The position numbers and the translations under genes are program-made. A stretch of 64,000 nt of DNA, taken from contig NZ_CP024608.1 in NCBI RefSeq assembly GCF_002752675.1, positions 4,402,001 through 4,466,000 on the forward strand. Reading direction: 5' to 3'. Under the pieces are notes generated by a model, which saw only the letters and a list, made by a program, of their open reading frames with translations, was not told the DNA's origin and ran no database searches. Below are positions 7,206 through 29,149 of this stretch, one piece after another. The stretch is from Massilia violaceinigra (GTDB taxonomy: Bacteria; Pseudomonadota; Gammaproteobacteria; Burkholderiales; Burkholderiaceae_D). The first letter of the stretch is position 1; each line of letters begins with the position of its first letter.

Positions 7206-7541
7206 GCCTCCTGGCCAAGCGCCGGCATGGGGACTGAGGCTGCGCGCGGGTGTTCGTCGTGCGCAGTTCCCTGCTCCGCAAGCGGCAAGCGCTTGCGCTT
7301 CCCATCCCATCCCGCGAACCATGCGGCGCGCTATGCGGCGCGCGGCCTTCACCGAGAATCGCTACGCCGCTTGGTGATTTTCATAATTGAAACTCCGTTG
7401 CGTTGCTTGCAGAATGAGCCGCAGCCCCGCTACACCGTCCAGTTCATTGATACTAAAGCAATTAGTTTTGGTTATACAATAAATAAAGGAAGCGCTCCCG
7501 ATAAAGAGGTGCGCCAGCGGGGCCTAAGGAGACAATCCACC
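7206..7541. other. Intergenic region upstream of xylR
   Basis: A 336-base non-coding stretch. It holds a 12-base palindrome GCAAGCGCTTGC at 7285-7296, the repeated motif annotated at 7370-7392, an AT-rich promoter-like segment around 7440-7490 with TATACAAT, and a ribosome binding site AAGGAGA at 7526-7532 that sets the xylR start. No gene is seen here. Confidence 0.6.
7370..7392 (+). promoter_or_regulatory. Candidate XylR operator, copy 1 (before xylR)
   Basis: Begins CTTGGTGATTTTCATAATTG and ends AAA. The right part is an inverted repeat TTTCA-TAAT-TGAAA. Copies with 21 of 23 and 18 of 20 matches lie at 16147 and 28861, both also upstream of genes of the xylose/xyloglucan system. It lies about 150 bases before the xylR start, consistent with autoregulation. 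Its role is inferred from position and recurrence. Confidence 0.6.
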
Positions 7542-8765
7542 ATGTTGATGCCAAAATCGCATCGAATCGCATTGCTGTTTAACGCAAACAAGATTTTCGA
7601 TCGTGAAGTTATTGAAGGAATCGCCGCCTATCTGTCGAGCACGCGCAGCTCGTGGGACCTGTTCCTGGAAGAGGATTTCCGCCTGCGCCTGCCCGGCATC
7701 GAAGACTGGCAGGGCGACGGCGTGATCGCCGATTTCGACGACCCGGCGGTCGCCGCCGCCCTCGCGCGCAGCCGCATTCCGGTGGTTGCCGTGGGCGGCT
7801 CCTACGAAAACGTCAACGCCTACCCGGCCGGCGTTCCCTACGTGGCCACCGACAATTTCAAGCTGATCAAACTGGCTTACGAACATCTGATCGAAGCCGG
7901 CCTGCGTCATTTCGCCCTGTTCAGCCTGCCCGAAGCGCAAGAAAACCGCTGGGCCCAGGAACGCGAAAACGCGTTTCGCAGCCTGATGCGGCGCGACCGC
8001 ATGGAAGCCGAAGTCTTCCGCGGCCAGGGCACCAGCGCGCCGTCCTGGGACGAAGCGGTGCAGCAGCAGATCAACTGGCTGCACAGCCTGCCCAAACCCT
8101 GCGGCATCATCGCCGTGACCGATGCCAGGGCGCGCCAGCTGATGCAGGCCTGCATGATCGCCGGCATCGAAGTGCCGGAACAGGTGGCCCTGATCGGCAT
8201 CGACAACGACCCGCTGGCGCGCATGCTCACCCGCATTCCGCTCAGCTCGGTGATCCAGGGCGCGCAGGAAATGGGCCGCGCCGCCGCCCATTTGCTCGAC
8301 CAGATGCTGCACGGCGCGCGCCTGGCCAATACCCGCATCCTGGTGCCGCCGGCCGGCATCAACGTGCTGGCGTCGAGCAAGCACGAACCGGCCAAGCATC
8401 CGCACGTGATGCGCGCGCGCCACTTCATCCGCCAGTACGCCTGCCAGGGCATCAAGACCGGGCAGGTGGCCGATTACGTCGGCATTTCGCGCTCGTCGCT
8501 GAAATCGTATTTCCGCCAGGAGCTCGGCTGCAGCGTGCACGACGAGATCCTGCGCTTCCGCCTGGACGCGGCGATTGCCATCCTCGAGCGCGGCGACTGC
8601 AACCTGGCCAATGTGGCGCTCAGCTGCGGCTTCACCTCGAGCCAGTACATGCACTCCGTGTTCAAGCGCGAGCTTGGCTGCACCCCGCGCGCCTACCAGG
8701 ACCAGGCCCTGCAAGGCCAGGCCGAGCCGGCGCCGGATCCCCAATTTCAACATGCAGATTCGTAA
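7542..8765 (+). CDS. xylR: XylR-type sugar-responsive regulator (LacI-like sensor plus AraC DNA-binding domain)
   Basis: A 407-residue protein. Residues 10-275 look like a LacI/periplasmic-binding sensor domain (RIALLFNANKIFDREV; VALIGIDNDPLARML; RIPLSSVIQGAQEMGRAAA). Residues about 295-395 form an AraC-type pair of helix-turn-helix motifs (VADYVGISRSSLKSYFRQ; NVALSCGFTSSQYMHSVFKR). This fusion is the XylR architecture, which activates xylose genes when xylose binds. The start is the ATG at 7542 behind AAGGAGA; the frame is open further upstream but lacks such a signal. It overlaps the epimerase gene by one base, and three candidate operators in the window fit it as the local regulator. Confidence 0.88.
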   Translation: MLMPKSHRIALLFNANKIFDREVIEGIAAYLSSTRSSWDLFLEEDFRLRLPGIEDWQGDGVIADFDDPAVAAALARSRIPVVAVGGSYENVNAYPAGVPYVATDNFKLIKLAYEHLIEAGLRHFALFSLPEAQENRWAQERENAFRSLMRRDRMEAEVFRGQGTSAPSWDEAVQQQINWLHSLPKPCGIIAVTDARARQLMQACMIAGIEVPEQVALIGIDNDPLARMLTRIPLSSVIQGAQEMGRAAAHLLDQMLHGARLANTRILVPPAGINVLASSKHEPAKHPHVMRARHFIRQYACQGIKTGQVADYVGISRSSLKSYFRQELGCSVHDEILRFRLDAAIAILERGDCNLANVALSCGFTSSQYMHSVFKRELGCTPRAYQDQALQGQAEPAPDPQFQHADS

Positions 8766-9814
8766 TGACGACCAACCAATTCCTTGCCACACCTGCGCTG
8801 CGCGCCGCAGACCAGCTGTTCACCCTGCGCAACGCCAACGACATGCGCCTGACCATCAGCGAGCGCGGGGCGGCGCTGGTGTCGTGGTGGGCGCCGGACC
8901 GGTATGGCAAGGTGGCCGACGTGCTGCTCGGCTATCGCGACGCGCACGGCTATGCCGATAACAGCGCCTATTTCGGCGCCGTCATCGGACGCTGGGCCAA
9001 TCGCATCGCGCGCGGCCGCTTCATGCTCGACGGCGCGCCGGTGCAGACGGCCGTGAATGACCGCGGCAATCACCTGCACGGCGGCGACGATGGCTTTCAC
9101 AAGGCGCGCTGGAAACTGAACGCATCGAACGCCGGCGTGTCGCTGCGCCTTAGCTCGCCGGACGGCGACGGCGGCTTTCCCGGCAAGCTCGACGTGCAGG
9201 TGCATTACCGGCTCGACGACGAAGGCCGCCTCACCATCGACTTCGAGGCGGTGTCGGACGCGCCGACACCGGTCAACCTGACCGCGCATCCGTACTTCAA
9301 CCTGAATGGCGGCAGCGCCGACGTGGGCGACCACATGCTGCAGATCGATGCCGATTTTTATCTCGAGACCGACCCGGGCGGCATTCCGGTCGGGGTGGCG
9401 GCGGTGGGCGGCACGCCGTTCGACTTCCGCCAGCCGGCCGCGATCGGGCCGCGCCTGGGCTGGCCGGATGCGCAGATTCGCCTGGCGGGCGGCTTCGATC
9501 ACTGTTACTGCGTCAAACCGCATGCGATGGGCAGGGCGGGGCCGCTGCGCGAGGTGGCGCGGGTGGTCGACCCGGGATCGGGGCGGCGCCTGCAGGTGTC
9601 GACCACCGAGCCGGGATTGCAGTTCTACAGCGGCAACTGGCTCGATGGCGTGCAGGGCAGGGCGGAACGGCCGTACGCGCGGCACGACGGGTTTTGCCTG
9701 GAAGCGCATGCGTATCCGGATCAGTTGAACGGGCAGTGCGCGGCGGCGGTGATTCTGCGGCCGGGGCAGGTGTACCGGCAGACCACGGTGTACAGGTTGT
9801 CGCTGCAGTCCTAG
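8765..9814 (+). CDS. galM: Aldose 1-epimerase (mutarotase)
   Basis: A 349-residue cytoplasmic-looking enzyme that interconverts alpha and beta anomers of aldoses. Family marks are GAVIGRWANRIARGRF, GNHLHGGDDGFHKARW, the histidine in NLTAHPYFNLNG and the catalytic glutamate in GFCLEAHAYPDQ. The ATG at 8765 overlaps the xylR stop (TAATG), so the two genes are translationally coupled. With XylR and the xylose pathway nearby it most likely supplies the anomer used by xylose dehydrogenase, though galactose freed by the GH35-like enzyme is another possible substrate. Confidence 0.92.
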   Translation: MTTNQFLATPALRAADQLFTLRNANDMRLTISERGAALVSWWAPDRYGKVADVLLGYRDAHGYADNSAYFGAVIGRWANRIARGRFMLDGAPVQTAVNDRGNHLHGGDDGFHKARWKLNASNAGVSLRLSSPDGDGGFPGKLDVQVHYRLDDEGRLTIDFEAVSDAPTPVNLTAHPYFNLNGGSADVGDHMLQIDADFYLETDPGGIPVGVAAVGGTPFDFRQPAAIGPRLGWPDAQIRLAGGFDHCYCVKPHAMGRAGPLREVARVVDPGSGRRLQVSTTEPGLQFYSGNWLDGVQGRAERPYARHDGFCLEAHAYPDQLNGQCAAAVILRPGQVYRQTTVYRLSLQS

Positions 9815-10684: not shown

Positions 10685-10705
10685 CAGGCATTCGAGCGTT
10701 TTGAT

Positions 10706-11395: not shown

Positions 11396-11839
11396 TGTCA
11401 AATGGTCGGAGTCCTTGTTTTTCACCGGGCCAGGCAGCGATCCGCCGCCCGAAAACCACACATCATACAACTTGCTGATTGTTTAATCATCTTATCCCGC
11501 GTAGTATGAAGTCGTCGCTGCCGTGACGACCCCGCTTGGGGCTGCCGGCGCCGATCCTGACCTGCGCGAACCCGGCTCCCCGCCTTCCTCGCAACGGCGA
11601 CAGGTACGCGAGGTACCTGTCTCAGTCATCGCTGTTGGATGCTGAAAGCTGTTCCCTACCCACCCAGCTGAACCCGGTCGACCGTGATGCGCTGCGGCTT
11701 GCCGCGACGTTTTTCACGCCGATACGGCATTGCCGCAGGCAAGGCCCCAGCGCGCGGGCAGGGATCGTCATGCGAGGCGCATTGAAGCGTTCAACAAAAG
11801 AACGCGCGCCATTTTCTATTTTCTTCATTGGAGACAACC
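11396..11839. other. Intergenic region upstream of the pectate lyase gene
   Basis: About 440 bases between a leftward and a rightward gene, expected to hold both promoters. I see no clear -35/-10 pair or operator. CTTGCTGATTG at about 11470 resembles the first half of the candidate XylR motif but lacks the second half. A ribosome binding site GGAGA at 11830-11834 sets the pectate lyase start. Confidence 0.4.
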
Positions 11840-13285
11840 ATGAAAACCACCTTACTCGCCGTCAGCCTCATGCTGGCATCCACCGCGCAGGCGGCCCCGC
11901 TCGACGCGAGCACTTTTGTTGGCGCCAGCACGCCCCTGCAAACGGCCCTGTACGGCGTGCGCAACTACTCGGCGCCCGTCCTGGTGAACGGCAAGCACGA
12001 CCCCGCCAGCTACATGGCCGCGCCCAAGCTGCCGGCGTGGCAGTTCGCCCGGGTCGACCCGACCGGCGGCGTGCTCACCTTCGAGCGCCAGAGCGCGCCG
12101 GCCACCGGCTGGCATACCTGGTCGCGCAAGGGCAAGGTGGTGGTCACGGGGGGCGGCGCGGCCCGCTCCGACCGCGTCTACACCGTGTTCAACGGCCAGC
12201 AACTGGTGGCCGCCATCAAGGAAGCCGGCAACGAACCGAAGATCATCCGCGTGGTCGGCCACATCGACTTGCGCTGGAGCCAGAACAATACGGTGTTCAA
12301 GGAATACACCAGCTACGCCGATCAGAAATACGGCGGCTCGATCAACCTGCCGTCGAACACCACCCTGGTGGGCATCAACGACGCCCAGGGCCGGCCGGCG
12401 CGCATGACGGGCACCGCGCTGCTGATCGGCGGCGAACTGGCGCTGGCGCCGGGCGGCGATCCGGAAGCCGATTTCAAGAAGTGGATCAAGGACGGCAAGG
12501 ACGGCGAGGATTATCCGACCTGGACCCGCAACATCATCGTGCGCAACCTGGTGATCGACACGCCGTGGGATGTCAATCCCGAGGACGCGGGCAATGCCTA
12601 CGCCGACGGCATCACCGTCTCGCGCGGACAGAACATTTTCCTCGATCACCTGAGCGTGAGCGATGGCGACACGCCCGAGTCGCTCGCCACCGGCACGTAC
12701 AAGACGCGGCATGACGGCGCGCTCGACGTGGTGCGCGGCAGCGATTACGTCACCATCGCCAACAGCTATTTCGCCAATCACCACAAGACCACGCTGGTCG
12801 GCAATGGCGACGGCGGCCGCGCCTGGAGCGACGAGGGCCGCTTGCATGTGACGTTTTCGGGCAACTGGTGGAGTTCGGTAGCGGCGCGCCTGCCGCTCAA
12901 TCGCTACGGCCAAGTGCACATGTCCAACAATCTCATCACCGGCAACGTGATGACCAAGGAGACCGACGTCAAGTTCGAAAGCGGCACCGATGCGCGCTAC
13001 CGCTCGAACATGCTGGTTGAAAACAGCTACTACAACATCACCGGCCTCAAGCTGTCCGAGTTCTGCGGCAAGGCCATCAAGGGCAAGGGCTTCATCGGCT
13101 TCCGCTCGTCCGGCCACATCTTTACCAGCGACCGCGCCGGCACCAATGCGGTCGACGGCCAGTGCGGCATGGCGCGCCCGGACGCAGCCAACCTGTGGAC
13201 CCCGCCGTATCTGTACGCACTGCAGACGGCGAGCTCGACCCTTCTCGCCGTACCCGCGCAGGCCGGTGCCGGCAAGCTCAAGTAA
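11840..13285 (+). CDS. Secreted pectate lyase, PL1 family
   Basis: A 481-residue protein with a signal peptide ending STAQAA, then a right-handed beta-helix lyase. Family marks are the calcium-site region ENIFLDHLSV-like stretch QNIFLDHLSVSDGD, DGALDVVRGSDYVTIANSYF, NHHKTTLVG and RLPLNRYGQVHMSNN with the catalytic arginine. It cleaves de-esterified homogalacturonan by beta-elimination outside the cell or in the periplasm. Start ATG 11840 follows GGAGACAACC. It lies beside genes for xyloglucan use, in line with a plant cell-wall lifestyle. Confidence 0.88.
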   Translation: MKTTLLAVSLMLASTAQAAPLDASTFVGASTPLQTALYGVRNYSAPVLVNGKHDPASYMAAPKLPAWQFARVDPTGGVLTFERQSAPATGWHTWSRKGKVVVTGGGAARSDRVYTVFNGQQLVAAIKEAGNEPKIIRVVGHIDLRWSQNNTVFKEYTSYADQKYGGSINLPSNTTLVGINDAQGRPARMTGTALLIGGELALAPGGDPEADFKKWIKDGKDGEDYPTWTRNIIVRNLVIDTPWDVNPEDAGNAYADGITVSRGQNIFLDHLSVSDGDTPESLATGTYKTRHDGALDVVRGSDYVTIANSYFANHHKTTLVGNGDGGRAWSDEGRLHVTFSGNWWSSVAARLPLNRYGQVHMSNNLITGNVMTKETDVKFESGTDARYRSNMLVENSYYNITGLKLSEFCGKAIKGKGFIGFRSSGHIFTSDRAGTNAVDGQCGMARPDAANLWTPPYLYALQTASSTLLAVPAQAGAGKLK

Positions 13286-13315
13286 TCACATCACCTTTAC
13301 GATCTGGAGATCACC

Positions 13316-13939
13316 ATGTTTTTTGAGCGATTGCGTATGACTGTCGTTTTTCTTCTCGCGCTGGGCGTGGCGCCCGGGGTGGCCCAAGCGGCCCTGGTGG
13401 CCGACACGGGCACGCCGTCGAACGCCGTCGGCGCTGGCTGGGCTTTTAACAGCGGCCACAGCTACGCGGGCCGGTTTTCCGTTCTGTCCGACCTGACGAT
13501 CAACAGCGTCGAAGGCTACTTCAGCACCGATGCCGGCGCGGTCAGCATCAGCCTGTTCAGCAATCGCGCCGATGGCGAGGGCGGCTTCATTCCGGGTAGC
13601 GCGCTGCGCTCGGCAAGCTTCGCCACCGGCCTGGGCGAGGCGGCATGGCACGGTGCGGCGGGCCTGAACTGGGCGGTGGAACAGGGCAGTTACTGGGTCG
13701 TGTTCACCTCGACCTACGGCAGCGAAAGCCAGGCCAGCATGCCTGGTTCGGTTGCCAGTGCGCTGGACGGTTACGCGCTTGAGCAGGGTGGCCAGTGGCA
13801 TGATGCCGCCGGCCTGGGGCTCGATCAGGGCTTGCGCGTGGACGCCAGCGCCATGGCCGTGCCCGAGCCGGGCAGCATGGCGCTGTTCGGGCTCGGATTG
13901 GCCGTGGTCGGCATGATGAGCCGGCGCAAGCGGGCTTGA
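13316..13939 (+). CDS. PEP-CTERM-sorted exported protein
   Basis: A 207-residue protein with a signal peptide ending VAQAA, a beta-rich body (SYAGRFSVLSDLTINSVEGY) and a carboxy-terminal VPEPGSMALFGLGLAVVGMM followed by SRRKRA. That tail is the PEP-CTERM sorting signal recognised by exosortase, used by biofilm- and exopolysaccharide-forming Gram-negatives. The function of the body is unknown. It starts 30 bases after the pectate lyase stop and follows CTGGAGATCACC, so the two may be co-transcribed. Confidence 0.85.
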   Translation: MFFERLRMTVVFLLALGVAPGVAQAALVADTGTPSNAVGAGWAFNSGHSYAGRFSVLSDLTINSVEGYFSTDAGAVSISLFSNRADGEGGFIPGSALRSASFATGLGEAAWHGAAGLNWAVEQGSYWVVFTSTYGSESQASMPGSVASALDGYALEQGGQWHDAAGLGLDQGLRVDASAMAVPEPGSMALFGLGLAVVGMMSRRKRA

Positions 13940-13959: not shown

Positions 13960-16035
13960 TCAGGGCTGCTTGGCTGGGGCGCGCGTCAGGCGCCGGGCAG
14001 GGGGGCTTGGCGGCAACGCCGCCATTTTGCCCCCCTCATACAGCTTGAAGCCGCCGACGATCTGTTCCAGGTTGGCGGCCTGCTGCTGCAGGGACTGCGC
14101 CGCTGCCGCCGCCTGTTCGACCAGGGCGGCGTTCTGTTGGGTGGTATCGTCCAGCTCGGTGATTGCCCGGTTGACCTGGCCGATGCCGAGATTCTGTTCG
14201 GCGCTGGCGCCCATGATGGCGCCGATGATGCCGGCCACCTTGTCGGTGCTGGCGACGATCCGCTGCATCGTGGTGCCGGCTTCGGCCACCAGCGCGGCGC
14301 CCTTGTCGACGCCGGCCACCGATTCGCCGATCAGCGCGTTGATTTCCTTGGCCGCCGCGGCCGAGCGCTGCGCCAGATTGCGTACTTCGGAGGCCACCAC
14401 GGCAAAGCCGCGACCCTGCTCGCCGGCGCGGGCCGCCTCCACGGCCGCGTTCAGCGCCAGGATATTGGTCTGGAAGGCGATGCCGTCGATGACGCTGATG
14501 ATGTCGACAATCTTGCGCGACGATTGCTCGATCGAGCCCATGGTGGTCACTACGCTGGACACGATGTTGCCGCCCTGCGCGGCCACGGTGGACGCCTCCA
14601 GTGCCAGCCGGTTGGCCTGGCTGGCGTTGTCCTCGTTGTTCTTGACGGTGCTGGTGAGCTCCTCCATCGAGGCCGCCGTCTCTTCGAGCGAACTGGCCTG
14701 CGCCTCGGTGCGCGAGGACAGGTCCTGATTGCCGGCCGCGATCTCGCGCGAGGCCAGTGCGATCGACTGGGTGCTCATGCCGATTTGCTGGAGCATGCTC
14801 TGCAGGCGCTCGATGAAGGCATTGAAGCTGCTCGAAACGGCGTCGAACTCCATCCCGCCACCGGGCGGCAGGCGGCGCGTCAGGTCGGCGTCGCCGGCCG
14901 ACAGGTCGTCGATGTTGCCCTTCAAAACGTCCAGGCGGTGCATGACCATGCGGATGCCCAGGACGATCAGTATCAGCATCGCGATGGCGACTGGAATCTG
15001 CACCATGCCGAGCGTGTGAAGGATGCGGTCGCTCTGTTGACTGAGCAGATGATTCGGCAGGCTGGTGGCCAGTACCCACGGACTGCCCGCAATGGTGGCG
15101 ATAAACAGGGTGTGGTCGGTGCCATCGCTGCGGTACGCCGATTCCAGCGCGGCTTTGTCGCCCAGCTGCGGCAGTACCTTGACCAGCTGCGCCGCCAGCG
15201 GCGAGCTGGGAGCCAGGTCGCTGATGTTCTTGAGCACGATCTCGCTCTTGATATAGCTGCTGTTGCTGACGATCTTGCCGTCGTGTTCCAGAATCAGAAT
15301 CTGGCCGTGCACGGCCGCTTCCATGTCCGCCACGAGGCGGTTGAAAAAGCCCAGCGTGACGTCGACAGTGGAGACGCCGAACAGCTCATTGTCCTTGTAG
15401 ATGGCCATGGCGCAGTTGGTGCGCGGCTGCGCGCTCGCATCGTCCTTGTAAGCCTTGGCCCAGGCGCACTGGCCTTTGGGTGCCTTGGCGCCACCCTGCC
15501 ACCAGGCTTGCTCGAAATATTTGAGCGACTCGGGCGTATTCCAGTGGGTGTTGACCTGCAGCTTGCCGGCCGCGTCGCGGGCGTAGAAGGTGCTGAATTT
15601 CTCTTTTTCCGGATCGCGCTTTTTCGGTACGGGCCAGATGCCGCCGCCGAACACGTTCGCATCGCCGTACTGGTCGACCAGGCCCGGCAGCAGGGTGTCG
15701 ATCGCGGCGCTGTCCATCAACGCCACGGTCTGGGTGATGGCACGCTGCTGCGCCTCGACCTGCTTGAGTTGTTGAGTGATCTTGATGGCAATGTTGTTGA
15801 CATCATGGCCGATCAGTTGACCTTCGGCGCGTTTCAGCTCCGGCGTGATGAACAGCGCGATGGCCGCCACCGTAATGACCAGCAAGCCGACGAAAATGGC
15901 GGAGAACAGCGCGATGAAGCGCGATTGGCTGGAGCGAAAATAGTCTTTCAAGGCGGGCCTCTGGAGTGGATTGACTGCTGGTGTCGTCGCCGGCAACGCG
16001 AGGGAAGAGTCGAGCGTCGCCACTCGCGCGGGCAC
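13960..16035 (-). CDS. Methyl-accepting chemotaxis protein with periplasmic Cache sensor
   Basis: A 691-residue receptor: a membrane segment near residues 41-62, a large periplasmic sensor of Cache type ([37 protein letters not shown]), a second membrane segment near 345-365, HAMP, and a cytoplasmic signalling domain with the hairpin tip [15 protein letters not shown] region and [20 protein letters not shown] at 16035 is the likely start, though the ribosome binding site is weak. It is divergent from xylX across about 220 bases that hold a candidate XylR operator, so its expression may be tied to xylose. The ligand is unknown; Cache domains often bind small organic acids, amino acids or sugars. 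Confidence 0.87.
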
Positions 16036-16146
16036 AGTTGCTCTGGAAGATTATGCTCACAGGAAACGACTGTCAAACGCCGCACGGTCATTCCGATCAA
16101 TAAGCAACAGCGACGTTCGCCGGCCCTGCTGATAATCATGATCGCC

Positions 16147-16169
16147 CTTGGTGGATTTCATAATTGAAA
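16147..16169 (+). promoter_or_regulatory. Candidate XylR operator, copy 2 (before xylX)
   Basis: Begins CTTGGTGGATTTCATAATTG, ends AAA, and matches the copy at 7370 in 21 of 23 positions, including the inverted repeat TTTCA-TAAT-TGAAA at 16156-16169. It lies 88 bases before the xylX start and about 110 bases before the divergent chemoreceptor start, so it could serve either promoter. Confidence 0.62.
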
Positions 16170-19279: not shown

Positions 19280-21060
19280 GCACCCACCCAACTCCGCCAC
19301 GCCGCTACCGCTCGCAGGACTGGTTCGACAATCCCGACCACATCGACATGACTGCCCTCTACCTGGAGCGCTTCATGAACTACGGCATCACCGCCGACGA
19401 ACTGCGCGCCGGCCGGCCCATCATTGGCATTGTCCAGAGCGGCAGCGACATCAGCCCGTGCAACCGCATCCACCTGGAACTGGCCAAGCGCGTGCGCGAC
19501 GGCATCCGCGACGCCGGCGGCATTGCCATGGAATTCCCGCTGCACCCGATTTTTGAAAACTGCCGCCGCCCGACCGCATCCATCGACCGCAACCTGGCCT
19601 ACCTGGGCCTGGTCGAAATCCTGCACGGCTACCCGATCGACGCGGTGGTGCTCACCACCGGCTGCGACAAGACCACGCCGGCCCAGATCATGGCCGCCTC
19701 GACGGTCGACATTCCCGCCATCGTGCTCTCCGGCGGACCGATGCTCGACGGCTGGTTCGAGGGCGAACTGGCCGGTTCCGGCAACGCCATCTGGCACGGC
19801 CGCCGCCGCCTCGCCGCCGGCGAGATCGACAATGAAAAATTCCTCCAGATCGCGGCCGCCTCGGCGCCGTCCGCCGGGCACTGCAACACCATGGGCACCG
19901 CCTCGACCATGAACGCGCTGGCCGAAGCACTCGGCATGTCGCTTACCGGCTGCTCGGCCATTCCTGCGCCGTACCGCGAACGCGGCCAGATGGCCTATGA
20001 AACGGGCCGCCGCATCGTCGAGCTGGCGCGTGAGGATGTCCGTCCTTCGCACATCCTCACCAAGGACGCGTTCCTGGACGCCATCGTGGTCAATGCCGCC
20101 ATCGGCGGTTCCACCAACGCCCAGCCGCACATCATGGCCATGGCGCGCCACGCCGGGGTCGAGATCGAATCGAGCGCCTGGATGGAATTCGGCCACGACG
20201 TGCCGCTGCTGCTCAACATGCAGCCGGCCGGCAAATTCCTCGGCGAACGGTTTCATCGCGCCGGCGGCGTTCCGTCCATCATGTGGGAGCTGCAGCAGGC
20301 CGGCAAGCTGCGCGCCGAGCGCCTGACCGTCACCGGCACCACCATGGCGGTCAACCTGCGAGACCGCGCCAGCGTCGACCGTGAGGTAATTTATCCGTAC
20401 GACGCGCCGCTGAAAGCCAAGGCGGGCTTCTTTGTCCTCAAGGGCAACCTGTTCGACTTCGCCATCATGAAGACGAGCGTGATCTCGGCCGACTTCCGCG
20501 CGCGCTACCTGTGCCGCCCCGGCCACGAAAATGTGTTCGAATGCCGCGCCGTGGTGTTCGACGGCTCGGGCGACTACCACGCGCGCATCAACGATCCGGC
20601 GCTCGATATCGACGAAGGCTGCATGCTGGTCATTCGCGGCGCCGGCCCCATCGGCTGGCCGGGTTCGGCCGAAGTGGTCAATATGCAGCCGCCGGACGCA
20701 CTGATCCGGCGTGGCATCCTCAACCTGCCGACCTTGGGCGACGGGCGCCAGTCGGGCACCTCGGACAGCCCCTCGATCTTGAATGCCTCGCCCGAAAGCG
20801 CGGCCGGCGGCGGGCTTGCCTACGTGCGCAGCGGCGACATCATCCGCGTCGACCTGAATACGGGCCGCTGCGACATGCTGGTGGACGACGCAGTCCTGGC
20901 CGAACGCAGGAAGGAACCGATCCCGCCCACGCCGCCGAGCCAGACCCCGTGGCAGGAGCTGTACCGCGCCACCGTGGGCCAGCTGGAACAGGGCGGCTGC
21001 ATGGAAATGGCGCTGCCGTACCGCGGCGTCGGCCACGATTTGCCGAGGCATAACCACTGA
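19276..21060 (+). CDS. xylD: Xylonate dehydratase, IlvD/Edd family
   Basis: A 594-residue enzyme, the length of Caulobacter XylD. Iron-sulfur cysteines are seen in SGSDISPCNRIH, TGCDKTTPAQIM and GHCNTMGTAST; the carboxy half has the GDGRQSGTSDSPSILN segment typical of sugar-acid dehydratases. It converts D-xylonate to 2-keto-3-deoxyxylonate, feeding XylX. The start appears to be the TTG at 19276, which overlaps the xylC stop (TTGA); it has no ATG nearby before conserved sequence begins. Coupling to the damaged xylC could lower its translation. Confidence 0.9.
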   Translation: MSTHPTPPRRYRSQDWFDNPDHIDMTALYLERFMNYGITADELRAGRPIIGIVQSGSDISPCNRIHLELAKRVRDGIRDAGGIAMEFPLHPIFENCRRPTASIDRNLAYLGLVEILHGYPIDAVVLTTGCDKTTPAQIMAASTVDIPAIVLSGGPMLDGWFEGELAGSGNAIWHGRRRLAAGEIDNEKFLQIAAASAPSAGHCNTMGTASTMNALAEALGMSLTGCSAIPAPYRERGQMAYETGRRIVELAREDVRPSHILTKDAFLDAIVVNAAIGGSTNAQPHIMAMARHAGVEIESSAWMEFGHDVPLLLNMQPAGKFLGERFHRAGGVPSIMWELQQAGKLRAERLTVTGTTMAVNLRDRASVDREVIYPYDAPLKAKAGFFVLKGNLFDFAIMKTSVISADFRARYLCRPGHENVFECRAVVFDGSGDYHARINDPALDIDEGCMLVIRGAGPIGWPGSAEVVNMQPPDALIRRGILNLPTLGDGRQSGTSDSPSILNASPESAAGGGLAYVRSGDIIRVDLNTGRCDMLVDDAVLAERRKEPIPPTPPSQTPWQELYRATVGQLEQGGCMEMALPYRGVGHDLPRHNH

Positions 21061-21198
21061 TGACATCCGTGATGACATCCGTGACGAGATAAATGTAGAT
21101 ATGGCAATGAACGGCGGGATTCCGTTATTTCGTTGCCAAAAACACGGCGCTGTGCCGGGTAGCATCCAAGTCGTATAACAATAATGGAGACAAACAAG

Positions 21199-22203
21199 AT
21201 GAAAAAAATTCTGAGCGTAGCGGTCGTATCGGCCATGATGATATTGACCTGCGGCCAGGCCAGCGCCGATGCCAAAAACCCGAAGATCGGTTTTTCGATC
21301 GACGACCTGCGCCTTGAGCGCTGGGCGCGCGACCGCGATTATTTCGTCGCTGCCGCCGACAAGCTGGGCGCCAAGGTGTTCGTGCAGTCGGCCGACGCCA
21401 GCGAGCAAAAGCAGATCGCGCAAATCGAAAACCTGATTTCGCGCGGGGTCGACGCGCTGGTGATCGTGCCTTACAACGCGACCGTGCTCAATAACGCGAT
21501 CAAGGAAGCCAAGAAGGCCAATATCAAGGTCATTTCGTACGACCGGCTGGTGCTCAATGCCGATGTGGATGCGTATATTTCCTTCGACAACAAGGCCGTG
21601 GGCGAGATGCAGGCTGCCGGCGTGGTGAAGGTTCGTCCGAAAGGCAATTACTACCTGCTGGGCGGCGCGCCGACCGACAACAACGCCAAGGTGCTGCGCG
21701 AAGGCCAGATGGCCGTGCTGCAGCCGCTGGTGGACAAGGGCGATATCAAAATCGTCGGCAAGCAGTGGGTCAAGGACTGGAGCCCGTCGGAAGCGCTGTC
21801 CATTGTCGAGAATGCGCTGACGGCCAATAACAACAAGATCGACGGGATCGTGGCATCGAACGACGCCACGGCTGGTGGCGCGATCCAGGCGCTGGCCTCG
21901 CAAAAGCTAGATGGCAAAGTGCCGGTGTCGGGGCAGGATTCCGATATTGCTGCGGTGCGCCGCGTGATTGCCGGGTCGCAGGCGATGACGGTGTACAAGC
22001 CGCTCAAGCTGCTGGCCGGCGAGGCGGCCAAGCTGGCGGTGCAACTGGTGCGCAATGAGAAGCCCGGTTTTAACGGCGAATACGACAACGGTTTCAAAAA
22101 GGTGAAAACGATCCTGCTCAAGCCGACTGCGCTGACCAAGGAAAATATCAATTTGCTGGTGACGGACGGGTTTTACACCCAAGCGCAGATAGCTGGTAAA
22201 TAA
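21199..22203 (+). CDS. xylF: D-xylose ABC transporter, periplasmic binding protein
   Basis: A 334-residue protein with a signal peptide ending ASADA, then a type I periplasmic sugar-binding fold: [57 protein letters not shown] and [19 protein letters not shown]. These are close to the XylF pattern. The ATG at 21199 follows TGGAGACAAAC; an in-frame ATG at 21184 is less likely. It lies 138 bases after xylD, so it may have its own promoter, and it heads the xylFGH importer. Confidence 0.92.
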
Positions 22204-22220
22204 CTGCGGGCATCGCCTCC

Positions 22221-22326
22221 ACTCCGTCGTTCCCGCGCAGGCGGGAACCCAAGTTCGTAGTGCCGCCTGTAGCCTCGATAAGAACTTGGATCCCCGCCGA
22301 GTGCCGCCTTGGCGCGGGGACGACGA
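22221..22326 (+). repeat. REP-like repeat pair between xylF and xylG
   Basis: A direct unit at 22221-22256 contains the hairpin GTTCCCGC-GCAG-GCGGGAAC; a second unit in opposite orientation at about 22282-22326 has GAACTTGGATCCCCGCC. They share sequence with the units inside xylC (18411-18581). The position between a binding-protein gene and its ABC partner is typical of REPs that stabilise the upstream mRNA, which would favour high XylF levels. Confidence 0.75.
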
Positions 22327-22352
22327 GAGGCGGGCGAGGTGCGCCTTTAGTG

Positions 22353-22366
22353 TGAAAACGTTTTCA
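22353..22366. promoter_or_regulatory. Perfect 14-base palindrome, LacI-family operator-like
   Basis: TGAAAACGTTTTCA is its own reverse complement and fits the A/T-flanked central CG form of LacI/GalR-family operators. It lies 16 bases before the xylG start. It could be the operator of a sugar repressor not in this window, or a remnant; no LacI-type gene with its own DNA-binding domain is seen here. Confidence 0.4.
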
Positions 22367-22381
22367 AACACGAGAACCAGT

Positions 22382-23917
22382 ATGTCCGACTATTTGCTTG
22401 AAATGAAGGGCATCGTCAAACAGTTCGACGGCGTCCGCGCGCTCGACGGCATCGACCTGCAAATCCGCGCCGGCGAATGCGTCGGCCTGTGCGGCGAAAA
22501 TGGCGCCGGCAAGTCGACCTTGATGAAGGTTCTTTCAGCCGTCTACCCGCACGGCACCTGGGATGGCGACATCCTGTTCGAGGGCAAACCCCTGCGCGCT
22601 ACCTCCATCCGCGAAACCGAGGCGGCCGGGATCATCATCATCCATCAGGAACTGATGCTCGTGCCGGAACTGTCGGTTACCGAGAACCTGTTCCTCGGTA
22701 ACGAAATCACCGGCTTTGGCGGGCGCATGAATTACCCCGCCATGAACCGGCGCGCCGAGCAGTTGCTGGCCGACTTGAATTTATCCGATGTGAACGTGGT
22801 GCTGCCGGTGATGAACTATGGCGGCGGCCACCAGCAACTGATCGAGATCGCCAAGGCCCTCAACAAGGACGCCAAGCTGCTGATCCTCGACGAGCCGTCA
22901 GCGTCGCTCACTGCCGCCGAAATCAAGATCCTGCTGGAGATTATCCGCAAGCTCAAGGCCAAGGGCGTCGCCTGCGTCTACATCTCCCACAAGCTCGATG
23001 AAGTGGCTGCGATTTGCGACACCATCGCCGTCATCCGCGACGGCAGGCACATCGCCACCACGCCGATGGCCGAACTGGATGTGAACCGCATCATCGCGCA
23101 GATGGTCGGGCGCGAGATGAACCAGCTTTATCCCAAGCAGGAGCGCGCGCTGGGCGAGGTGATCTTCGAGGCGCGCAACGTCACCTGCTACGACATCGAC
23201 AAGCCGGAACGCAAACGCGTCGACAACGTCTCGTTCACGCTCCGCAAAGGCGAAATCCTCGGCATCGCCGGGCTGGTCGGGGCAGGGCGCACCGAGCTGG
23301 TATCGGCGCTGTTCGGCGCCTATCCGGGTGCCAGCCAGGCCGAGGTACGCCTGCATGGCGCCGTGGTCGATACCGGCACGCCGCTCAAGGCCATCCGCGC
23401 CGGCTTCGCGCTGGTGCCGGAAGACCGCAAGCAGCACGGCATCGTGCGCGACCTGGACGTCGGCCAGAACATCACCCTCTCCGTGCTCGATTCGTTTTCG
23501 CGCCTGACCCGCATCGACCGCGAAGCCGAACTGAAAACCGTGCAGGAGCAGATCAACCGCCTCGGACTGAAAACTGCCAGCCCGTTCCTGCCCATTACCA
23601 GCCTGTCGGGCGGTAACCAGCAAAAGGCGGTGCTGTCGAAAATGCTGCTGACAAAGCCGCAGGTGCTGATCCTCGACGAGCCGACCCGTGGCGTCGACGT
23701 GGGCGCCAAATACGAAATCTACAAGCTGATGTTCGAACTGGCCAGCCAGGGCATGTCGATCATCATGGTGTCCTCCGAGCTGGCCGAGGTGCTGGGCATT
23801 TCCGACCGCGTGCTGGTGATGGGCGAGGGCCAGCTGCGCGGCGACTTCGTCAACCAGAACCTGACTCAGGAAACCCTGCTCGCCGCCGCCCTCGACCACG
23901 CTCCAGCCGTGCACTGA
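22382..23917 (+). CDS. xylG: D-xylose ABC transporter ATP-binding protein
   Basis: A 511-residue protein with two ABC ATPase domains, as in sugar importers of the CUT2 class. The first domain has Walker [13 protein letters not shown], signature [14 protein letters not shown] and Walker [12 protein letters not shown]. The second has the usual degenerate P-loop [10 protein letters not shown], signature [14 protein letters not shown] and [11 protein letters not shown]. The ATG at 22382 begins MSDYLLEM; open frame further upstream runs through the repeat pair and is not part of the gene. Works with XylF and XylH at the inner membrane. Confidence 0.92.
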
Positions 23918-23943
23918 ACGACGCTACCTTCGCGATAGAACAC

Positions 23944-25086
23944 ATGAACCCGATCAAATTCAAACAAATCTTCACGCAGTATAAAATCCTGGCCCTGCTG
24001 GCCGCGATTGCCCTCATCTGGCTGTTCTTCAGCTGGAAAACCGATGGCGGCTTCACCTCGGCGCGCAACCTGTCGAACCTGATGCGCCAGATGGCCATTA
24101 CCGGCATCCTGGCCTGTGGCATGGTGTTCGTCATCATCGCCGGCGAGATCGACCTGTCGGTCGGCTCCCTGCTCGGGCTATTGGGCGGCGTGGCGGCGGT
24201 GCTCGATGTGAGCCATCACTTGCCGCTGCCGCTGATCGTGCTGCTGGTGCTGGCGTGCGGGCTGGTGCTGGGCATCTTCAACGGCTACCTGGTGGCGTAT
24301 GCGGGCATACCCTCCTTCATTGTGGGACTGGGCGGGATGCTGGCCTATCGCGGCATCGTGCTCGGGGTGACCGATGGTACAACGGTGGCGCCGGTATCGC
24401 CCGAGATGGTGTACCTGGGGCAGGGCTACCTGTCGCCCGACCTGAGCATCGGCCTTGGCGTGCTGCTGTTCGTGCTGGCCGCGGTGCTGACCTGGCGCCA
24501 GCGCGCCAGCCTGGCGCACCACGGCTTGCCGGTGCCGACCGCCCTGCGCGATGGCGTGCGCCTGCTGGCGATTGGCGCGGTGCTGTATTCGGTGGTGCGC
24601 ACGCTGCACAGCTATGAAGGCATTCCGCTGCCGGTGCTGCTGCTCCTGGTCCTGCTTGCGGTGTTCAGCTACGTGGCCACGCAAACCGTGTTCGGTCGCC
24701 GCATCTATGCGGTCGGCAGCAATATGGAAGCGACCCGCCTGTCCGGCGTGAACGTGCGCGCCGTCAAACTGTGGATTTTCGGCTTGATGGGATTGATGTG
24801 CGCACTGGCGGGGCTGATCAACACCGCGCGCCTGGCAGCAGGGTCGCCTTCGGCCGGTACTTCGGGTGAACTCGATGTGATCGCGGCCTGTTTCATCGGC
24901 GGCACCTCGATGCGCGGCGGCTCGGGCACGGTGTACGGCGCCCTGATCGGCGCGCTGGTCATGGCCAGCCTGGATAACGGCATGTCGATGCTGGACGTCG
25001 ACAGCTACTGGCAGATGATCGTCAAGGGTGCCATCCTCACCCTGGCGGTGTGGGTCGACGTGGTCACGCGCTCCGCGCGCCGCTGA
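23944..25086 (+). CDS. xylH: D-xylose ABC transporter permease
   Basis: A 380-residue membrane protein with about ten hydrophobic segments. The CUT2 permease signature is clear: FVIIAGEIDLSVGSLLGLLG and, near the carboxy end, ACFIGGTSMRGGSGTVYGAL. VGSNMEATRLSGVNVRAVK is typical of xylose and ribose permeases. It starts 27 bases after xylG and is followed 18 bases later by the esterase gene, so uptake and polymer-processing genes appear to be in one operon. Confidence 0.92.
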   Translation: MNPIKFKQIFTQYKILALLAAIALIWLFFSWKTDGGFTSARNLSNLMRQMAITGILACGMVFVIIAGEIDLSVGSLLGLLGGVAAVLDVSHHLPLPLIVLLVLACGLVLGIFNGYLVAYAGIPSFIVGLGGMLAYRGIVLGVTDGTTVAPVSPEMVYLGQGYLSPDLSIGLGVLLFVLAAVLTWRQRASLAHHGLPVPTALRDGVRLLAIGAVLYSVVRTLHSYEGIPLPVLLLLVLLAVFSYVATQTVFGRRIYAVGSNMEATRLSGVNVRAVKLWIFGLMGLMCALAGLINTARLAAGSPSAGTSGELDVIAACFIGGTSMRGGSGTVYGALIGALVMASLDNGMSMLDVDSYWQMIVKGAILTLAVWVDVVTRSARR

Positions 25087-25103: not shown

Positions 25104-26420
25104 ATGATGAAACGTATAGCCAAGCCCCTGCGCCTGTCGCTCGTGTTGCCGGCGCTGCTGGCCGTCGGTGCCTGCGCCACGCCCGCGAAACAGAGCGATG
25201 AGCTGACGATCTACGCGGCCGGCCCGCGCATCGGATCGAACGTGGTCGTCGCCGATTTTGAAGCGTCGCAGCGGGTTGATGGCGCTTCCGTCCTCGTACC
25301 TAAACCGGCAGTGCCCAAGGTCGCGGAAAGCCGGGTCGGGGTCGATGTCGGCGACAACGCGATGACGCTGCACTTCAAGGACGCCTGGTATGCCAACCTG
25401 CGCGTGGAAAGCGATGCGCCGCTCGACCTGCGTGCGTATGTTCCCGATGGCGTGGTGGCGTTTGACCTGAATGTGGAGGAGATGGCGCAGGGCGGGGTGT
25501 CCTTCAAGGTCAGTTGTGGCAAGGAGTGCGAACGCCAGGTGCCGTATCTGGTGCCGGCGCGCGCCATGGCGGGCAAGGGTTGGCAGCCATTGGTGTTTTC
25601 GATGCGCTGCTTTGCGCGCGACGGCGACGACTTCCGCGCCGTGACCGTGCCGTTCGCACTGGAAGGCAGCGGCAGCGGCAGGGTGGGAATTGCGCATATC
25701 CGCTTCCTCAAAACCGGTACGCCGAATACGGTGTGCCCGGATTACAAGACGCAGTCGGTCACGCCCGAGATGCTCAATCAATCCTGGTCGATCAACAACT
25801 GGCTGCCGCGCCACGAGGCAAAAAAAGCGGAAGTCGAGCGCCGCAATGCCGCTGGCGAAAAAACTGGCATTGTCTTCATCGGCGACTCGATCACCGAGGG
25901 TTGGGAGAAAACCGGCGCGCCAGTTTGGCAGCGCTACTACGCCAAATACAATGCATTGGGACTGGGCTTTGGCGGCGACCATACCGAGAACGTCTTGTGG
26001 CGCCTGCAGCACGGCGCGCTCGAAGGACTCGACCCGAAAGTCGTGGTGCTGATGGCCGGTACCAACAACACCGGCGACCGGCGCGAAAATCCGGTTACTA
26101 CGGCGGCTGGAATCCGTCGCAATATCGAGGAGGTGCAACAGCGCCTGCCGAACGCCAGAATCCTGCTGCTGGCGATCTTTCCGCGCGATGCAAAGCCGGA
26201 CAGCCAGCTGCGCCGCATCAACGATGAGGTCAACAAGATCCTGGCGGGCTTCGACGACGGCAAGCGGATCTTTTTCCTGAACATCAACCAGACCTTCCTC
26301 AACGCCGACGGTACCTTGTCGCGCGAGGTCATGCCCGATCTGCTGCACCTGAACGAGCAAAGCTACGAAGCGTGGGCAAAGGCGATGGCCCCGGCCTTGC
26401 AGCGCCTGATGGGGGAGTAA
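25104..26420 (+). CDS. Lipoprotein SGNH/GDSL esterase with N-terminal GH3 ExoP-like domain
   Basis: A 438-residue protein with a lipoprotein-type signal ending LLAVGAC (Cys24). Residues about 35-220 are beta-rich and resemble the carboxy-terminal galactose-binding-like (ExoP) domain of some GH3 glucosidases: LRAYVPDGVVAFDLNVEEMA, AGKGWQPLVFSMRCFARDGD and VTVPFALEGSGSGRVGIAHI. From about residue 250 comes an SGNH hydrolase with FIGDSITEG (Ser), GFGGDHTENV (Gly), AGTNNT (Asn) and DLLHLNEQSYEAW (Asp-His). It probably removes acetyl groups from xyloglucan fragments, judging from its place between xylH and the GH95 gene (3 bases away). The GH3 resemblance is my reading, not a search. Confidence 0.72.
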   Translation: MMKRIAKPLRLSLVLPALLAVGACATPAKQSDELTIYAAGPRIGSNVVVADFEASQRVDGASVLVPKPAVPKVAESRVGVDVGDNAMTLHFKDAWYANLRVESDAPLDLRAYVPDGVVAFDLNVEEMAQGGVSFKVSCGKECERQVPYLVPARAMAGKGWQPLVFSMRCFARDGDDFRAVTVPFALEGSGSGRVGIAHIRFLKTGTPNTVCPDYKTQSVTPEMLNQSWSINNWLPRHEAKKAEVERRNAAGEKTGIVFIGDSITEGWEKTGAPVWQRYYAKYNALGLGFGGDHTENVLWRLQHGALEGLDPKVVVLMAGTNNTGDRRENPVTTAAGIRRNIEEVQQRLPNARILLLAIFPRDAKPDSQLRRINDEVNKILAGFDDGKRIFFLNINQTFLNADGTLSREVMPDLLHLNEQSYEAWAKAMAPALQRLMGE

Positions 26421-26423
26421 TCG

Positions 26424-28760
26424 ATGAAGACGTCACTGTGCTGCGCGCTGCTGTTCGCGGCCTTCATGCATGACGCCAGTGCCAGCGACCGCATCTTGCG
26501 CTACGACCGCCCGGCGCCCGACACGCCGGAGGGCTGGGAACGCGAGGCGCTCCCGATCGGCAATGGCCGTATCGGAGCGATGATTTTCGGGCAGGTGGCG
26601 CGCGAGCGCATCCAGTTCAACGACATCACCTTGTGGAGCGGCGACGACAAGACGCTGGGCGCCTACCAGCCGTTCGGCGACGTGTTCATCAACCTGCCGG
26701 GGCACGCCGCCGGCGTCAGCCAGTACGCGCGCAAGCTCGATCTGGACAACAGCCTGCACAGCGTCACGTACAGGCACTCCGGGGTGGCGTTCAAGCGCGA
26801 GATGTTCGCCAGCCATCCGGCGCAGGCGATCGTGGCGCGCCTGAGCGCCGACCAGCCGGGCAAGTACAGCGGCTCGATCGAGCTGACCGACATGCACGAC
26901 GCGCGCATCAGCGTGTCCGGCAACCGCATTTACGCCACAGGGTCGCTGGCCGGCTTCGTGCTGCCCGCCACGCCGCCGACCGCACCGACGACGAACGTCA
27001 TGGATTACGCCAGCCAGGTGCAGGTGATCAACGAGGGCGGCACCCTGTCGGTGGAAGGCAACCGGATCGTCTTCACCAACTGCGATGCACTGGTGCTGGT
27101 GCTTGGCGCGGGAACGAGCTACGTCAATGATGCGAGCAAGCGGTTCCAGGGCGCGCACCCCTTGCCGCGCGTTTCAAGCCAGGTCGGCGCGGCAGGGGCA
27201 CGCCCGTGGGCGCAACTGCTCGCCGCGCACCAGCACGATTTCAAGCGCCTCTACGACCGTGTGAGCGTCGATTTCGGCCAGGCATCGGCCACGCGGCGCG
27301 CACTGCCCACCGACCAGCGCATCGAGGCCTACACCGCCGAAGGCAAGGACCCGGGGCTGGAAGCGCAGTTCTTCCAGTTCGGCCGCTACCTGCTTATTTC
27401 GAGTTCGCGCGATTCGCTGCCGGCCAACCTGCAGGGATTGTGGAACAACAGCCTCACGCCGCCGTGGAATTCGGACTACCACACCAACATCAACATCCAG
27501 ATGAATTACTGGCCCGCCGAACCGGCCAACCTGGCTGAATCGGCGATGCCGTTCTTCGACTTCGTTACCGGCGTGGCACCCGTGTACCGGCAGCTGATTC
27601 TCGACACCGCCACCGGCGCGCTGGCACAGCCGCCCAAGGCCGGCGAGGAAAGCTTCCTCACCGCCGCGAACAAGCCGGTACGTGGCTGGGCGCTGCGCAC
27701 TGAATCGAATCCTTTCGGGGCGACCACCTACATCTGGAACAAGACCGGCAACGCCTGGTATGCGCAGCACTTCTGGGAACACTACGCCTTTACCCAGGAC
27801 CGTGAGTTCCTGCGCACCGTGGCCTACCCGATGATGAAGGAAGTGTGCGCGTTCTGGCAGGACCATCTGAAGCGCGTGCCCGATGGCCGGCTGGTGGCGC
27901 CAAACGGCTGGTCGCCCGAGCACGGGCCGATTGAAGATGGTGTCAGCTACGACCAGCAGATCATCTGGGACCTGTTCAACAACACCGTGGAAGCGGCGGA
28001 CGTCCTCGGCACCGACAAGGCCTTCCGCGACCAGATCGCGGCGATGCGCGACCAATTGGTGGGTCCGCGCATCGGCAGCTGGGGCCAGCTGCTCGAATGG
28101 ATGGAAGAGAAAAAGGACCCTGTGCTCGACACCCCCGGCGACACGCACCGTCACGTGTCGCACCTGTTTGGCCTGTTCCCGGGCCGGCAAATCTCGCCAA
28201 CCAAAACCCCGGCGCTGGCTGCGGCGGCGCGCAGGTCGCTCGAAGGGCGCGGCGACGCTGGCACCGGTTGGTCGATGGCGTGGAAGACCGCTTTCTGGGC
28301 GCGCCTGCTCGATGGCGACCACGCTTACAAAATGCTGCGCGGGCAGTTGGCCAAGCCGGGGGCGCGCGCCGCCCAGCAGGCCGGCCCCGGCACCGAAACC
28401 AACAATGCAGGCGGCACTTACGCCAACATGTTCGACGCCCATCCGCCGTTCCAGATCGACGGCAACCTGGGCGCCACCGCGGCCATCTGCGAAATGCTGC
28501 TGCAGTCGCACACGGGCGAGCTGCATCTGCTGCCGGCGCTGCCGTCGTCGTGGCCCGACGGTGCGGTGAAAGGCTTGCGCGCCCGTGGCGGCTTCGAGGT
28601 CGATATCGCCTGGGCCGGCGGCAAACTGACCGGCGCGAGCATCCGCTCGGTGGCGGGGCAGGGCGGCGGGACGGTGCGCTATGGCGATAAGGTAGTTGCG
28701 CTCAGCCTGAAACCCGGCGCTTCCGCGCGCCTGGGCAGCATGCTCGCGGTCCAGAAATAG
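26424..28760 (+). CDS. GH95 alpha-L-fucosidase
   Basis: A 778-residue secreted protein with a signal peptide ending ASAS, typical GH95 length. The amino end has [19 protein letters not shown]; the catalytic barrel has [18 protein letters not shown] near residues 355-372 (the paired asparagines that activate water), [20 protein letters not shown] and [20 protein letters not shown]95 enzymes remove alpha-1,2-fucose (or alpha-galactose) by inversion. In the xyloglucan loci of Cellvibrio and Xanthomonas a GH95 removes fucose from galactosylated side chains, and the same partners follow here. Confidence 0.88.
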
Positions 28761-29149
28761 TAAGCAGGTATGCCAGCTTTGACGCATTTGCGCCGCGATG
28801 GCGACAGGTGCGCATAGCCGCGCGCCGAGCGAACGTTGTTTCCTTAATATCGTTCTGTGTCTTGGTCATTTTCGTAATTGCGGCGGGCGGGCGGAGCTCG
28901 GAGAATAAATGCACAAATTAGCGCGGCTCCGGGCCACCCCTGGCACCAGCCGACGCATATAAAAATCCATACGAGACGCTAGCAATGATGATCAACCACA
29001 GGCCCACGCGGCCCTGTCTCCGTCCGTCTGCGCTCCTTTCAACAATCGCGTTGAGGAGGGCTTGCCTTTATCGATGAACGACACTTTGCAGCACCGCCAG
29101 CACAAACATAAAAAGCAGCCGTGATTCGAACGGAAACAGAGGAGACAAG
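28761..29149. other. Intergenic region upstream of the TonB receptor gene
   Basis: A 389-base stretch without a gene. It contains the third copy of the candidate XylR motif at 28861, an AT-rich patch near 28955-28970 and a strong GAGGAG ribosome binding site at 29139-29145. The position fits a regulated promoter for the receptor, GH35 and GH31 genes. Confidence 0.6.
28861..28880 (+). promoter_or_regulatory. Candidate XylR operator, copy 3 (before the TonB receptor)
   Basis: CTTGGTCATTTTCGTAATTG matches the copy at 7370 in 18 of 20 positions and in the same orientation relative to the downstream gene. The inverted repeat is weaker because the right AAA is missing. It lies about 270 bases before the receptor start. 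Confidence 0.55.

Follow-up and report, generated by a model that had tools for sequence, protein, structure and literature searches.

A predicted XylR operator fused to a promoter precedes xylose and xyloglucan genes in Massilia violaceinigra

What switches on the genes for xylose and for xyloglucan, a plant cell-wall polymer, that stand close together in the genome of the soil bacterium Massilia violaceinigra? We addressed this question in a stretch of 64,000 nucleotides (contig NZ_CP024608.1 of assembly GCF_002752675.1, positions 4,402,001 to 4,466,000), referred to here as the window. A sequence-only reading of the window had drawn attention to a 20-base motif that recurs, with at most two mismatches and always in the same orientation, ahead of three genes: xylR, xylX and that of a TonB-dependent receptor (TBDT). 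We recovered the copies at exactly the claimed positions (7370-7389, 16147-16166 and 28861-28880), all on the plus strand, with 0, 2 and 2 mismatches, each reading into the unit named: site 1 into xylR (start at 7542), site 2 into xylX (16257) and site 3 into the TBDT (29150). Very probably, the motif forms most of the operator bound by XylR, the AraC-type regulator encoded next to it, and is fused to the promoter that XylR controls; xylose-bound XylR would activate all three promoters. Direct support comes from the sites themselves, their spacing, their conservation, their uniqueness in the genome and their statistical association with XylR. The claimed improbability of chance copies agreed with 100 dinucleotide shuffles of the window, which gave 0 matches to the 20-mer. 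In the whole genome (7,530,059 bases, 2 contigs), the 20-mer at up to 3 mismatches matched only the three window copies, with no scatter over unrelated genes, and the reversed-pattern control gave 0 matches. The degenerate core TTGGTSANTTTCRYAATTG matched 3 places at up to 1 mismatch, 0 at 2 and 7 at 3 (control 4) across the same genome.

To define the conserved element, we aligned 35 non-redundant sites from relatives (63 before near-identical contexts were removed; the window genome was excluded and some background included), and conservation extended past the 20-mer on either side. The module runs from a box RNAATCRTKA through 6 free bases, the core TTGGTGANTTTCRYAATTG and 20 further bases to CANAAT. 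The last TTG of the core is the -35 of a promoter, and the hexamers TTGNNN and CANAAT are separated by 17 bp, a sigma-70 promoter spacing. At site 1, the upstream box agaatcgcta (7355-7364), a putative first XylR half-site whose column conservation lies outside the search core, precedes the core TTGGTGATTTTCATAATTG (7371-7389), with its last TTG as the -35, and the -10 box CAGAAT (7410-7415), which follows TTGAAA after a 17-bp spacer. Site 2 consists of ataatcatga (16132-16141), the core TTGGTGGATTTCATAATTG (16148-16166) and CACCAT (16187-16192), the last placed by promoter alignment and six-genome comparison, while site 3 consists of aatatcgttc (28846-28855), the core TTGGTCATTTTCGTAATTG (28862-28880) and GAGAAT (28901-28906); all of these elements are on the plus strand. 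A matrix from relatives only scored sites 3, 1 and 2 at 50.5, 50.2 and 31.4 bits, and the next-best place in the window at 0.9. This matrix was built from 57 non-redundant contexts out of 119 (near-identical ones removed), drawn from several genera.

The module was then assessed in 80 named XylR loci (L175-L254; 1,667,204 bases in all) from Massilia, Duganella, Janthinobacterium and their kin, which ranked highest among 428 relatives. These loci contained 136 cores, of which 96 were exact, 23 had 1 mismatch and 17 had 2, whereas the reversed pattern gave 0 matches. Two features independent of core selection recurred at fixed offsets from the 119 cores with up to 1 mismatch: A..AT downstream in 111 (7 at the next-best offset), and [AT]TC[AG] upstream in 99 (25 at the next-best offset). 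Among sites found elsewhere, L163, L164, L174, L135 and L161 at 18116 were rejected as real, having no -10 and mostly no upstream box; L124 and L157, whose -10 lies one base beyond the usual offset, were kept.

Conservation of the sites was compared with that of their surroundings in six close genomes. Invariant columns made up 17/19 of the core at the TBDT site compared to 51/315 around it, 15/19 compared to 92/215 at the xylR site, and 18/19 compared to 57/185 at the xylX site, where one of the six genomes is the remnant G003 discussed below. The upstream boxes of sites 1, 2 and 3 were invariant in 8/10, 10/10 and 7/10 columns, and the -10 boxes of sites 1 and 3 in 6/6 and 5/6. In a 17-genome genus sample, all seven genomes having a TBDT orthologue (at least 71%) carried a site at up to 1 mismatch before it, two of which the first search pattern had missed. 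Among seven further TBDT paralogues of genome G012, five (L150-L154) showed no site, the L150 match being cut at its start. These results bear on the possibility that the three copies are alike through recent duplication inside the locus and not through recognition by a protein, as their placement within 21.5 kb on one strand might suggest. However, the likeness ends at the module, which relatives belonging to several genera carry in 57 non-redundant contexts and which is better conserved than any other part of the TBDT leader. We rejected recent local duplication because the upstream flanks, spacers and downstream sequences of the three copies are unlike, and we consider it the least probable of the explanations weighed here, with hardly any chance of being right. 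The distance from core to gene start is 288 bases for the TBDT compared to 109 for xylX and 171 for xylR, and it was 264-386 bases in 7/10 TBDT-labelled sites of relatives; the long stretch from the module to the TBDT start (28907-29149) is possibly a structured leader.

The motif had also been said to contain the inverted repeat TTTCA-N4-TGAAA. This proved true of copies 1 and 2 and false of copy 3, which reads TTTCG-TAAT-TGCGG. In the 35-site alignment, column 20 is C in 23/35 sites and columns 21-22 carry near-zero information; because the columns after TTG are thus mostly C and then nearly uninformative, the TGAAA arm in copies 1 and 2 looks like chance. An inverted-repeat operator was therefore rejected, its right arm being missing in copy 3 and unconserved in relatives; what is conserved, as far as the sequence tells, is an AraC-type element of tandem appearance joined to a -35/-10 promoter. 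The same evidence bears on a role of XylR as a repressor on the inverted repeat. The LacI-type XylR of Caulobacter and Xanthomonas is a repressor that acts on a palindromic operator and controls genes for TonB receptors and hydrolases in a manner linked to xylose or xylan, and the window XylR shares a LacI-like sugar-binding domain with that type. In contrast, its DNA-binding domain is an unrelated AraC helix-turn-helix (HTH), its sites contain no conserved palindrome, the core abuts the -35, and the conserved box upstream is placed as for an activator. Repression of this kind is thus very unlikely. When the upstream box was compared with the core in a direct-repeat test, shift 22 scored best (3.66) and shift 16 nearly equal (3.50); the two elements may represent a repeated half-site with a period of 22 bp.

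To place XylR among known regulators, we compared it and its sites with those of Escherichia coli. The xylR gene (7542-8765, plus strand) encodes 407 amino acids with PBP1_XylR, Peripla_BP_3 and C-terminal AraC HTH domains, all above Pfam cut-offs. The protein is 46% identical to E. coli XylR over 386 amino acids, and it matches the solved E. coli structures 4fe4/4fe7 along the full length (E 5e-113); its closest named relatives are from Massilia atriviolacea (98%) and from M. mucilaginosa, M. frigida and M. rubra (97%). L011, L058 and L078, whose translations were in a wrong frame, were left out of the identity comparison. In E. coli MG1655, the promoters of xylA and xylF both match RTAATTG-N21-ANNAT and are the sole two such places in 8.3 kb, whereas a 40-kb E. 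coli control gave 0 matches, though RTAATTG occurs there 14 times. The three window sites likewise read RTAATTG at the -35, a 17-bp spacer and an ANNAT -10, so that the two homologous regulators, of like domain make-up, share the overlap of RTAATTG with the -35 as well as the spacing. The xylF promoter also has an upstream AATCRT box, one base nearer than in the Massilia module, and two adjacent XylR sites lie three bases apart at xylF according to the available part of one report (PMC7567609). In contrast, the TTGGTGA of the Massilia core is missing in E. coli, and the repeat period is 21 compared to a putative one of about 22 in Massilia. The targets differ as well: they are xylose isomerase and xylulokinase in E. 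coli, whereas in Massilia they comprise, in addition to xylFGH, xyloglucan genes and an oxidative route of the Weimberg type. When applied to E. coli, the full matrix failed and was rejected as proof, since the xylA promoter scored -12.7 bits and the 40-kb control reached +1.4. Taken at sequence level, XylR is homologous along its full length and the geometry is kept relative to E. coli, while part of the recognised sequence appears changed.

To examine whether the module and XylR co-occur, we drew 294 family genomes evenly; XylR was present in 96 of them (E 1e-60 or better) and missing in 198. The core at up to 3 mismatches was found in 82/96 genomes with XylR compared to 59/198 without (p 3e-20), and the reversed core in about 15/294. 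To lower the 3-mismatch background of the bare core, the -10 was added to the search pattern; the core plus -10 at up to 3 mismatches was then found in 87/96 compared to 46/198 (p 2e-29). The mean number of such matches per genome was 2.89 with XylR and 0.32 without, and at least 3 matches occurred in 31 genomes compared to 4. The highest numbers, 15-16 per genome at up to 3 mismatches, were reached in G183, G282 and G288. In a class-wide search for XylR in 369 evenly drawn genomes, only the window genome had a match at E 1e-70.

The loci of individual module matches were inspected in 8 genomes. In G012, ten sequences resemble XylR at 38-85% identity (one of them partial and interrupted by stops); they lie on contigs C84, C69, C71, C23, C19 and C3, and the genome has 12 module matches. 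The 85% copy has good sites nearby, the sites near the 69-79% paralogues are missing or weak, and no site (at 2 mismatches, or 4 with the -10) was found near the 36-58% paralogues of G012 or the 41% XylR of G007 within the stretches examined. G003 has no XylR; at its locus L155 (C4:165000-184900) galM and xylX fragments remain, the latter beside a GH31 fragment (GH, glycoside hydrolase), XylR is gone, and both operators are still present. By its sequence this locus looks like a recent deletion remnant.

The association also bears on whether some other regulator, either global or tied to TonB receptor loci, binds the motif, with XylR merely a neighbour. Such a regulator could account for the 46/198 XylR-lacking genomes that match the core plus -10, and for G003, which keeps two sites; XylR binding to the motif is, moreover, a prediction. 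However, the module is strongly associated with XylR at the genome level and has the geometry of the known E. coli XylR promoters, G003 can be read as a deletion remnant, and in six XylR-lacking genomes examined in detail 18/19 matches had 3 mismatches and one had 2, as expected of background, judged by match quality only. The reverse complement of the 20-mer, ATGAAAATCACCAAG, resembles a gene start, and this likeness may be a source of the extra 3-mismatch background in genomes lacking XylR. Control by another regulator is thus improbable, though less so than the two preceding explanations.

To characterise the targets, we assigned each of the 136 sites the best-scoring labelled gene starting within 800 bases, which is not always the first gene. 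The most frequent targets were xylX (31), GDSL esterase (28), TBDT (22), galM (11), xylR (8) and xylB (6), followed by GH3 (6), GH42 (3), xylF (3), GH29 (2), BD-FAE-type esterase (2) and GH31 (1); one site led a protein without a Pfam match and 12 were unlabelled. Of the 18 labelled targets outside the six most frequent kinds, 17 were sugar-related. Because the 80 loci are centred on xylR, which biases these counts toward xyl genes, we examined sites on contigs without a listed XylR. Nine of ten such sites (in G012, G193 and G288) lead TBDT, esterase, GH31, GH39, GH97 or GH43 genes, and the tenth is L135, which has no -10. Further sites elsewhere lead GH3, GH29, GH42, Trp-halogenase-like and galactarate-dehydratase-like genes. 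Among the open reading frames behind sites that matched no window protein, 20 were scanned with Pfam, those at L135, L157 and L166 at 3746 and some short ones being left out. Together, XylR co-occurrence, sugar-gene targets and E. coli-like geometry lend in silico support to the earlier proposal of a XylR regulon joining xylose catabolism to polymer uptake.

Several results weigh against a XylR operator. In nine of the 96 XylR-containing genomes, allowing 3 mismatches gave no match to the core plus -10 (G140, G152 and G171 keep the core), and the 87 positive genomes include background, as in G007, whose XylR is only 41% identical and which was counted through two 3-mismatch places on other contigs. 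Core matches in genomes without XylR (59/198) exceed the reversed control (about 15/294), and G003 has two sites, one of them exact, without XylR, although its locus is visibly eroded. The good-box sites L131, L142 and L159 lead open reading frames without a Pfam match, and 7/80 XylR loci have no site in the stretch examined. The family matrix is blind to the E. coli operators: TTGGT is unshared, and the likeness comprises RTAATTG and spacing only. Shifts 22 and 16 nearly tie in the direct-repeat test, and XylR binding, the effector and activation at these sites are predictions. Finally, only 9/80 XylR loci have a site that lies within 500 bases of xylR and reads into the gene, which indicates that self-control of XylR would be a trait of some lineages, the window's among them.

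Behind site 1, downstream of xylR, lies a galM-like aldose 1-epimerase gene (8750-9814; Aldose_epim; start inferred), and xylXBCD and xylFGH are located 7.5-16 kb downstream of xylR. The xylX-like gene (16257-17429) encodes a putative 2-keto-3-deoxyxylonate dehydratase, assigned on a FAA_hydrolase score of 19.9 bits against a cut-off of 23.9 and on operon context; no NCBIfam model matched the protein. It is followed by xylB for D-xylose 1-dehydrogenase (17423-18211; NF053674, 422 bits against a cut-off of 400), a xylC-like lactonase gene (18196-19110; SGL) and a xylD-like dehydratase gene (19276-21060; ILVD/EDD). XylB, XylC and XylD of the Weimberg pathway are thus all present, XylB by a curated model and the other two at family level, while no 2-oxoglutarate semialdehyde dehydrogenase was found among the open reading frames scanned between xylX and GH31. 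The xylose ABC transporter xylFGH (21184-25086) is supported by TIGR02634 and TIGR02633 above cut-off, with the permease as BPD_transp_2. Next come a GDSL esterase with an Exop_C domain (25107-26420; start inferred), whose solved relatives are distant GDSL/PAF-acetylhydrolases and whose role as a xyloglucan acetylesterase is only a guess, and a GH95 putative alpha-L-fucosidase (26424-28760), identified by domain scan. Behind site 3 lie the TBDT (29150-32194; TonB-Xanth-Caul model, 644 bits), a GH35 beta-galactosidase (32194-33843; best solved relative 3u7v, E 7e-183, then Bgl35A 5jaw, E 1e-166) and a Xyl31A-like GH31 alpha-xylosidase (33744-36740; best match 2xvg, 1018 bits). All of these genes are on the plus strand, and the co-location of GH31, GH35, GH95 and a TonB receptor is the gene set of a Cellvibrio-type xyloglucan locus.

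Other genes adjoin these units. The stretch between galM and a chemotaxis receptor gene (11828-13939) encodes a pectate lyase and a small protein whose tail is PEP-CTERM-like, and no module of their own was found there. The chemotaxis receptor, with a dCache sensor domain (13960-16035, minus strand), is divergent from the xylX operon, and site 2 is in the gap between them. Directly after the xyloglucan genes is a nitrous oxide reductase cluster (37006-46159) encoding a NosZ-like propeller, NosR-like protein, NosD, ABC ATPase, NosL, cytochrome c and ApbE.

From the arrangement of sites and genes, we infer XylR binding, xylose as the effector, activation rather than repression, the operon extents and xyloglucan as the substrate. 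A XylR dimer holding D-xylose would bind two adjacent elements, the upstream box and the core, at a distance of about 22 bp. An activator bound directly upstream of and overlapping the -35 represents the class II AraC-type arrangement; because the core ends in the -35 TTG, followed by 17 bp and the -10, XylR bound next to the -35 would touch RNA polymerase and activate in this class II manner. Promoter 1 would drive xylR-galM, promoter 2 xylXBCD, xylFGH, the esterase and GH95, and promoter 3 the TBDT, GH35 and GH31. As no terminator-like site was found on the plus strand between GH95 and site 3, transcription starting at site 2 may read through. GH31 would free xylose from xyloglucan side chains and XylFGH would import it; the imported xylose would then raise XylR through site 1, catabolism and uptake through site 2, and xyloglucan import and trimming through site 3. 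By raising both its own level and xyloglucan import, XylR would close a positive loop.

Known systems offer parallels to several parts of this scheme. The outer-membrane transporters of the Xanthomonas xyloglucan locus are TonB-dependent. As described in the accessible text of the Xanthomonas report, that locus shares GH31, GH35, GH95 and outer-membrane transporters with the window and has a xyloglucan acetylesterase, of which the GDSL esterase of the window is a putative counterpart. It differs in having an endo-xyloglucanase of family GH74, and its acetylesterase is the founding member of CE20 (PMC8245568). The xyloglucan locus of Cellvibrio japonicus, which handles fucogalactoxyloglucan, contains Xyl31A, Bgl35A, a GH95 fucosidase and a TonB receptor (accessible part of PMC4285296), and thus shares GH31, GH35, GH95 and the receptor with the Massilia locus, whose GH31 is closest to Xyl31A among solved structures. 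Unlike it, the Massilia locus has an additional esterase and xylose catabolism genes; in the same part of that report, the sensor or regulator appears to the authors to be missing, whereas the Massilia locus adjoins xylR and carries a predicted operator (PMC4285296). A precedent for a XylR activating a polysaccharide locus is XylRA of Vibrio sp. EA2, which, in the portion of the report available, activates a beta-1,3-xylan locus, binds xylose and not oligosaccharides, and shifts probes with two AT-rich direct repeats in gel shift (PMC12125979). It resembles the Massilia system in its LacI-like and AraC domains and in placing polysaccharide genes under a xylose activator; it differs in serving xylan and not xyloglucan, an isomerase pathway, and uptake by ABC and major facilitator superfamily transporters instead of a TonB receptor, and its operator is likened to the Massilia module by description, not letter by letter (same part of PMC12125979). 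In Burkholderia sacchari, mild overexpression of xylR improved growth on xylose and strong overexpression was harmful, as far as the accessible text reports (PMC5952831).

The operator had been presented as not described for this group. No description was found in the open-licence literature (RegPrecise and most subscription papers lay outside this scope), but an operator of this kind is known from E. coli and Vibrio. Accordingly worded, XylR is of the known E. coli type, while its family-specific operator and target list look undescribed, and the predicted regulon is enlarged to take in xyloglucan use, compared to that of E. coli-type XylR. The module provides a sequence-level candidate for what turns on xyloglucan loci in some Proteobacteria, a question also posed by C. 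japonicus, where, in the part of the report available, the authors noted no regulator within the locus (PMC4285296). Short and highly specific, it can be used for listing XylR targets across hundreds of genomes, and the set of XylR paralogues is useful for studying the joint change of operators and regulators. The signal is predicted to be a monosaccharide and not an oligosaccharide, a strategy that the Vibrio authors call uncommon in the text accessible (PMC12125979). There is about an even chance that, in the Massilia/Duganella family, a narrow xylose activator has turned into a master switch of hemicellulose use, with a ready-made module of two half-sites and a -35/-10 placed before TonB receptors and many hydrolase families, and with XylR duplicated and the operators of the diverged copies changed. 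If this is true, a single monosaccharide, xylose, would inform the cell's decision to forage on polymers.

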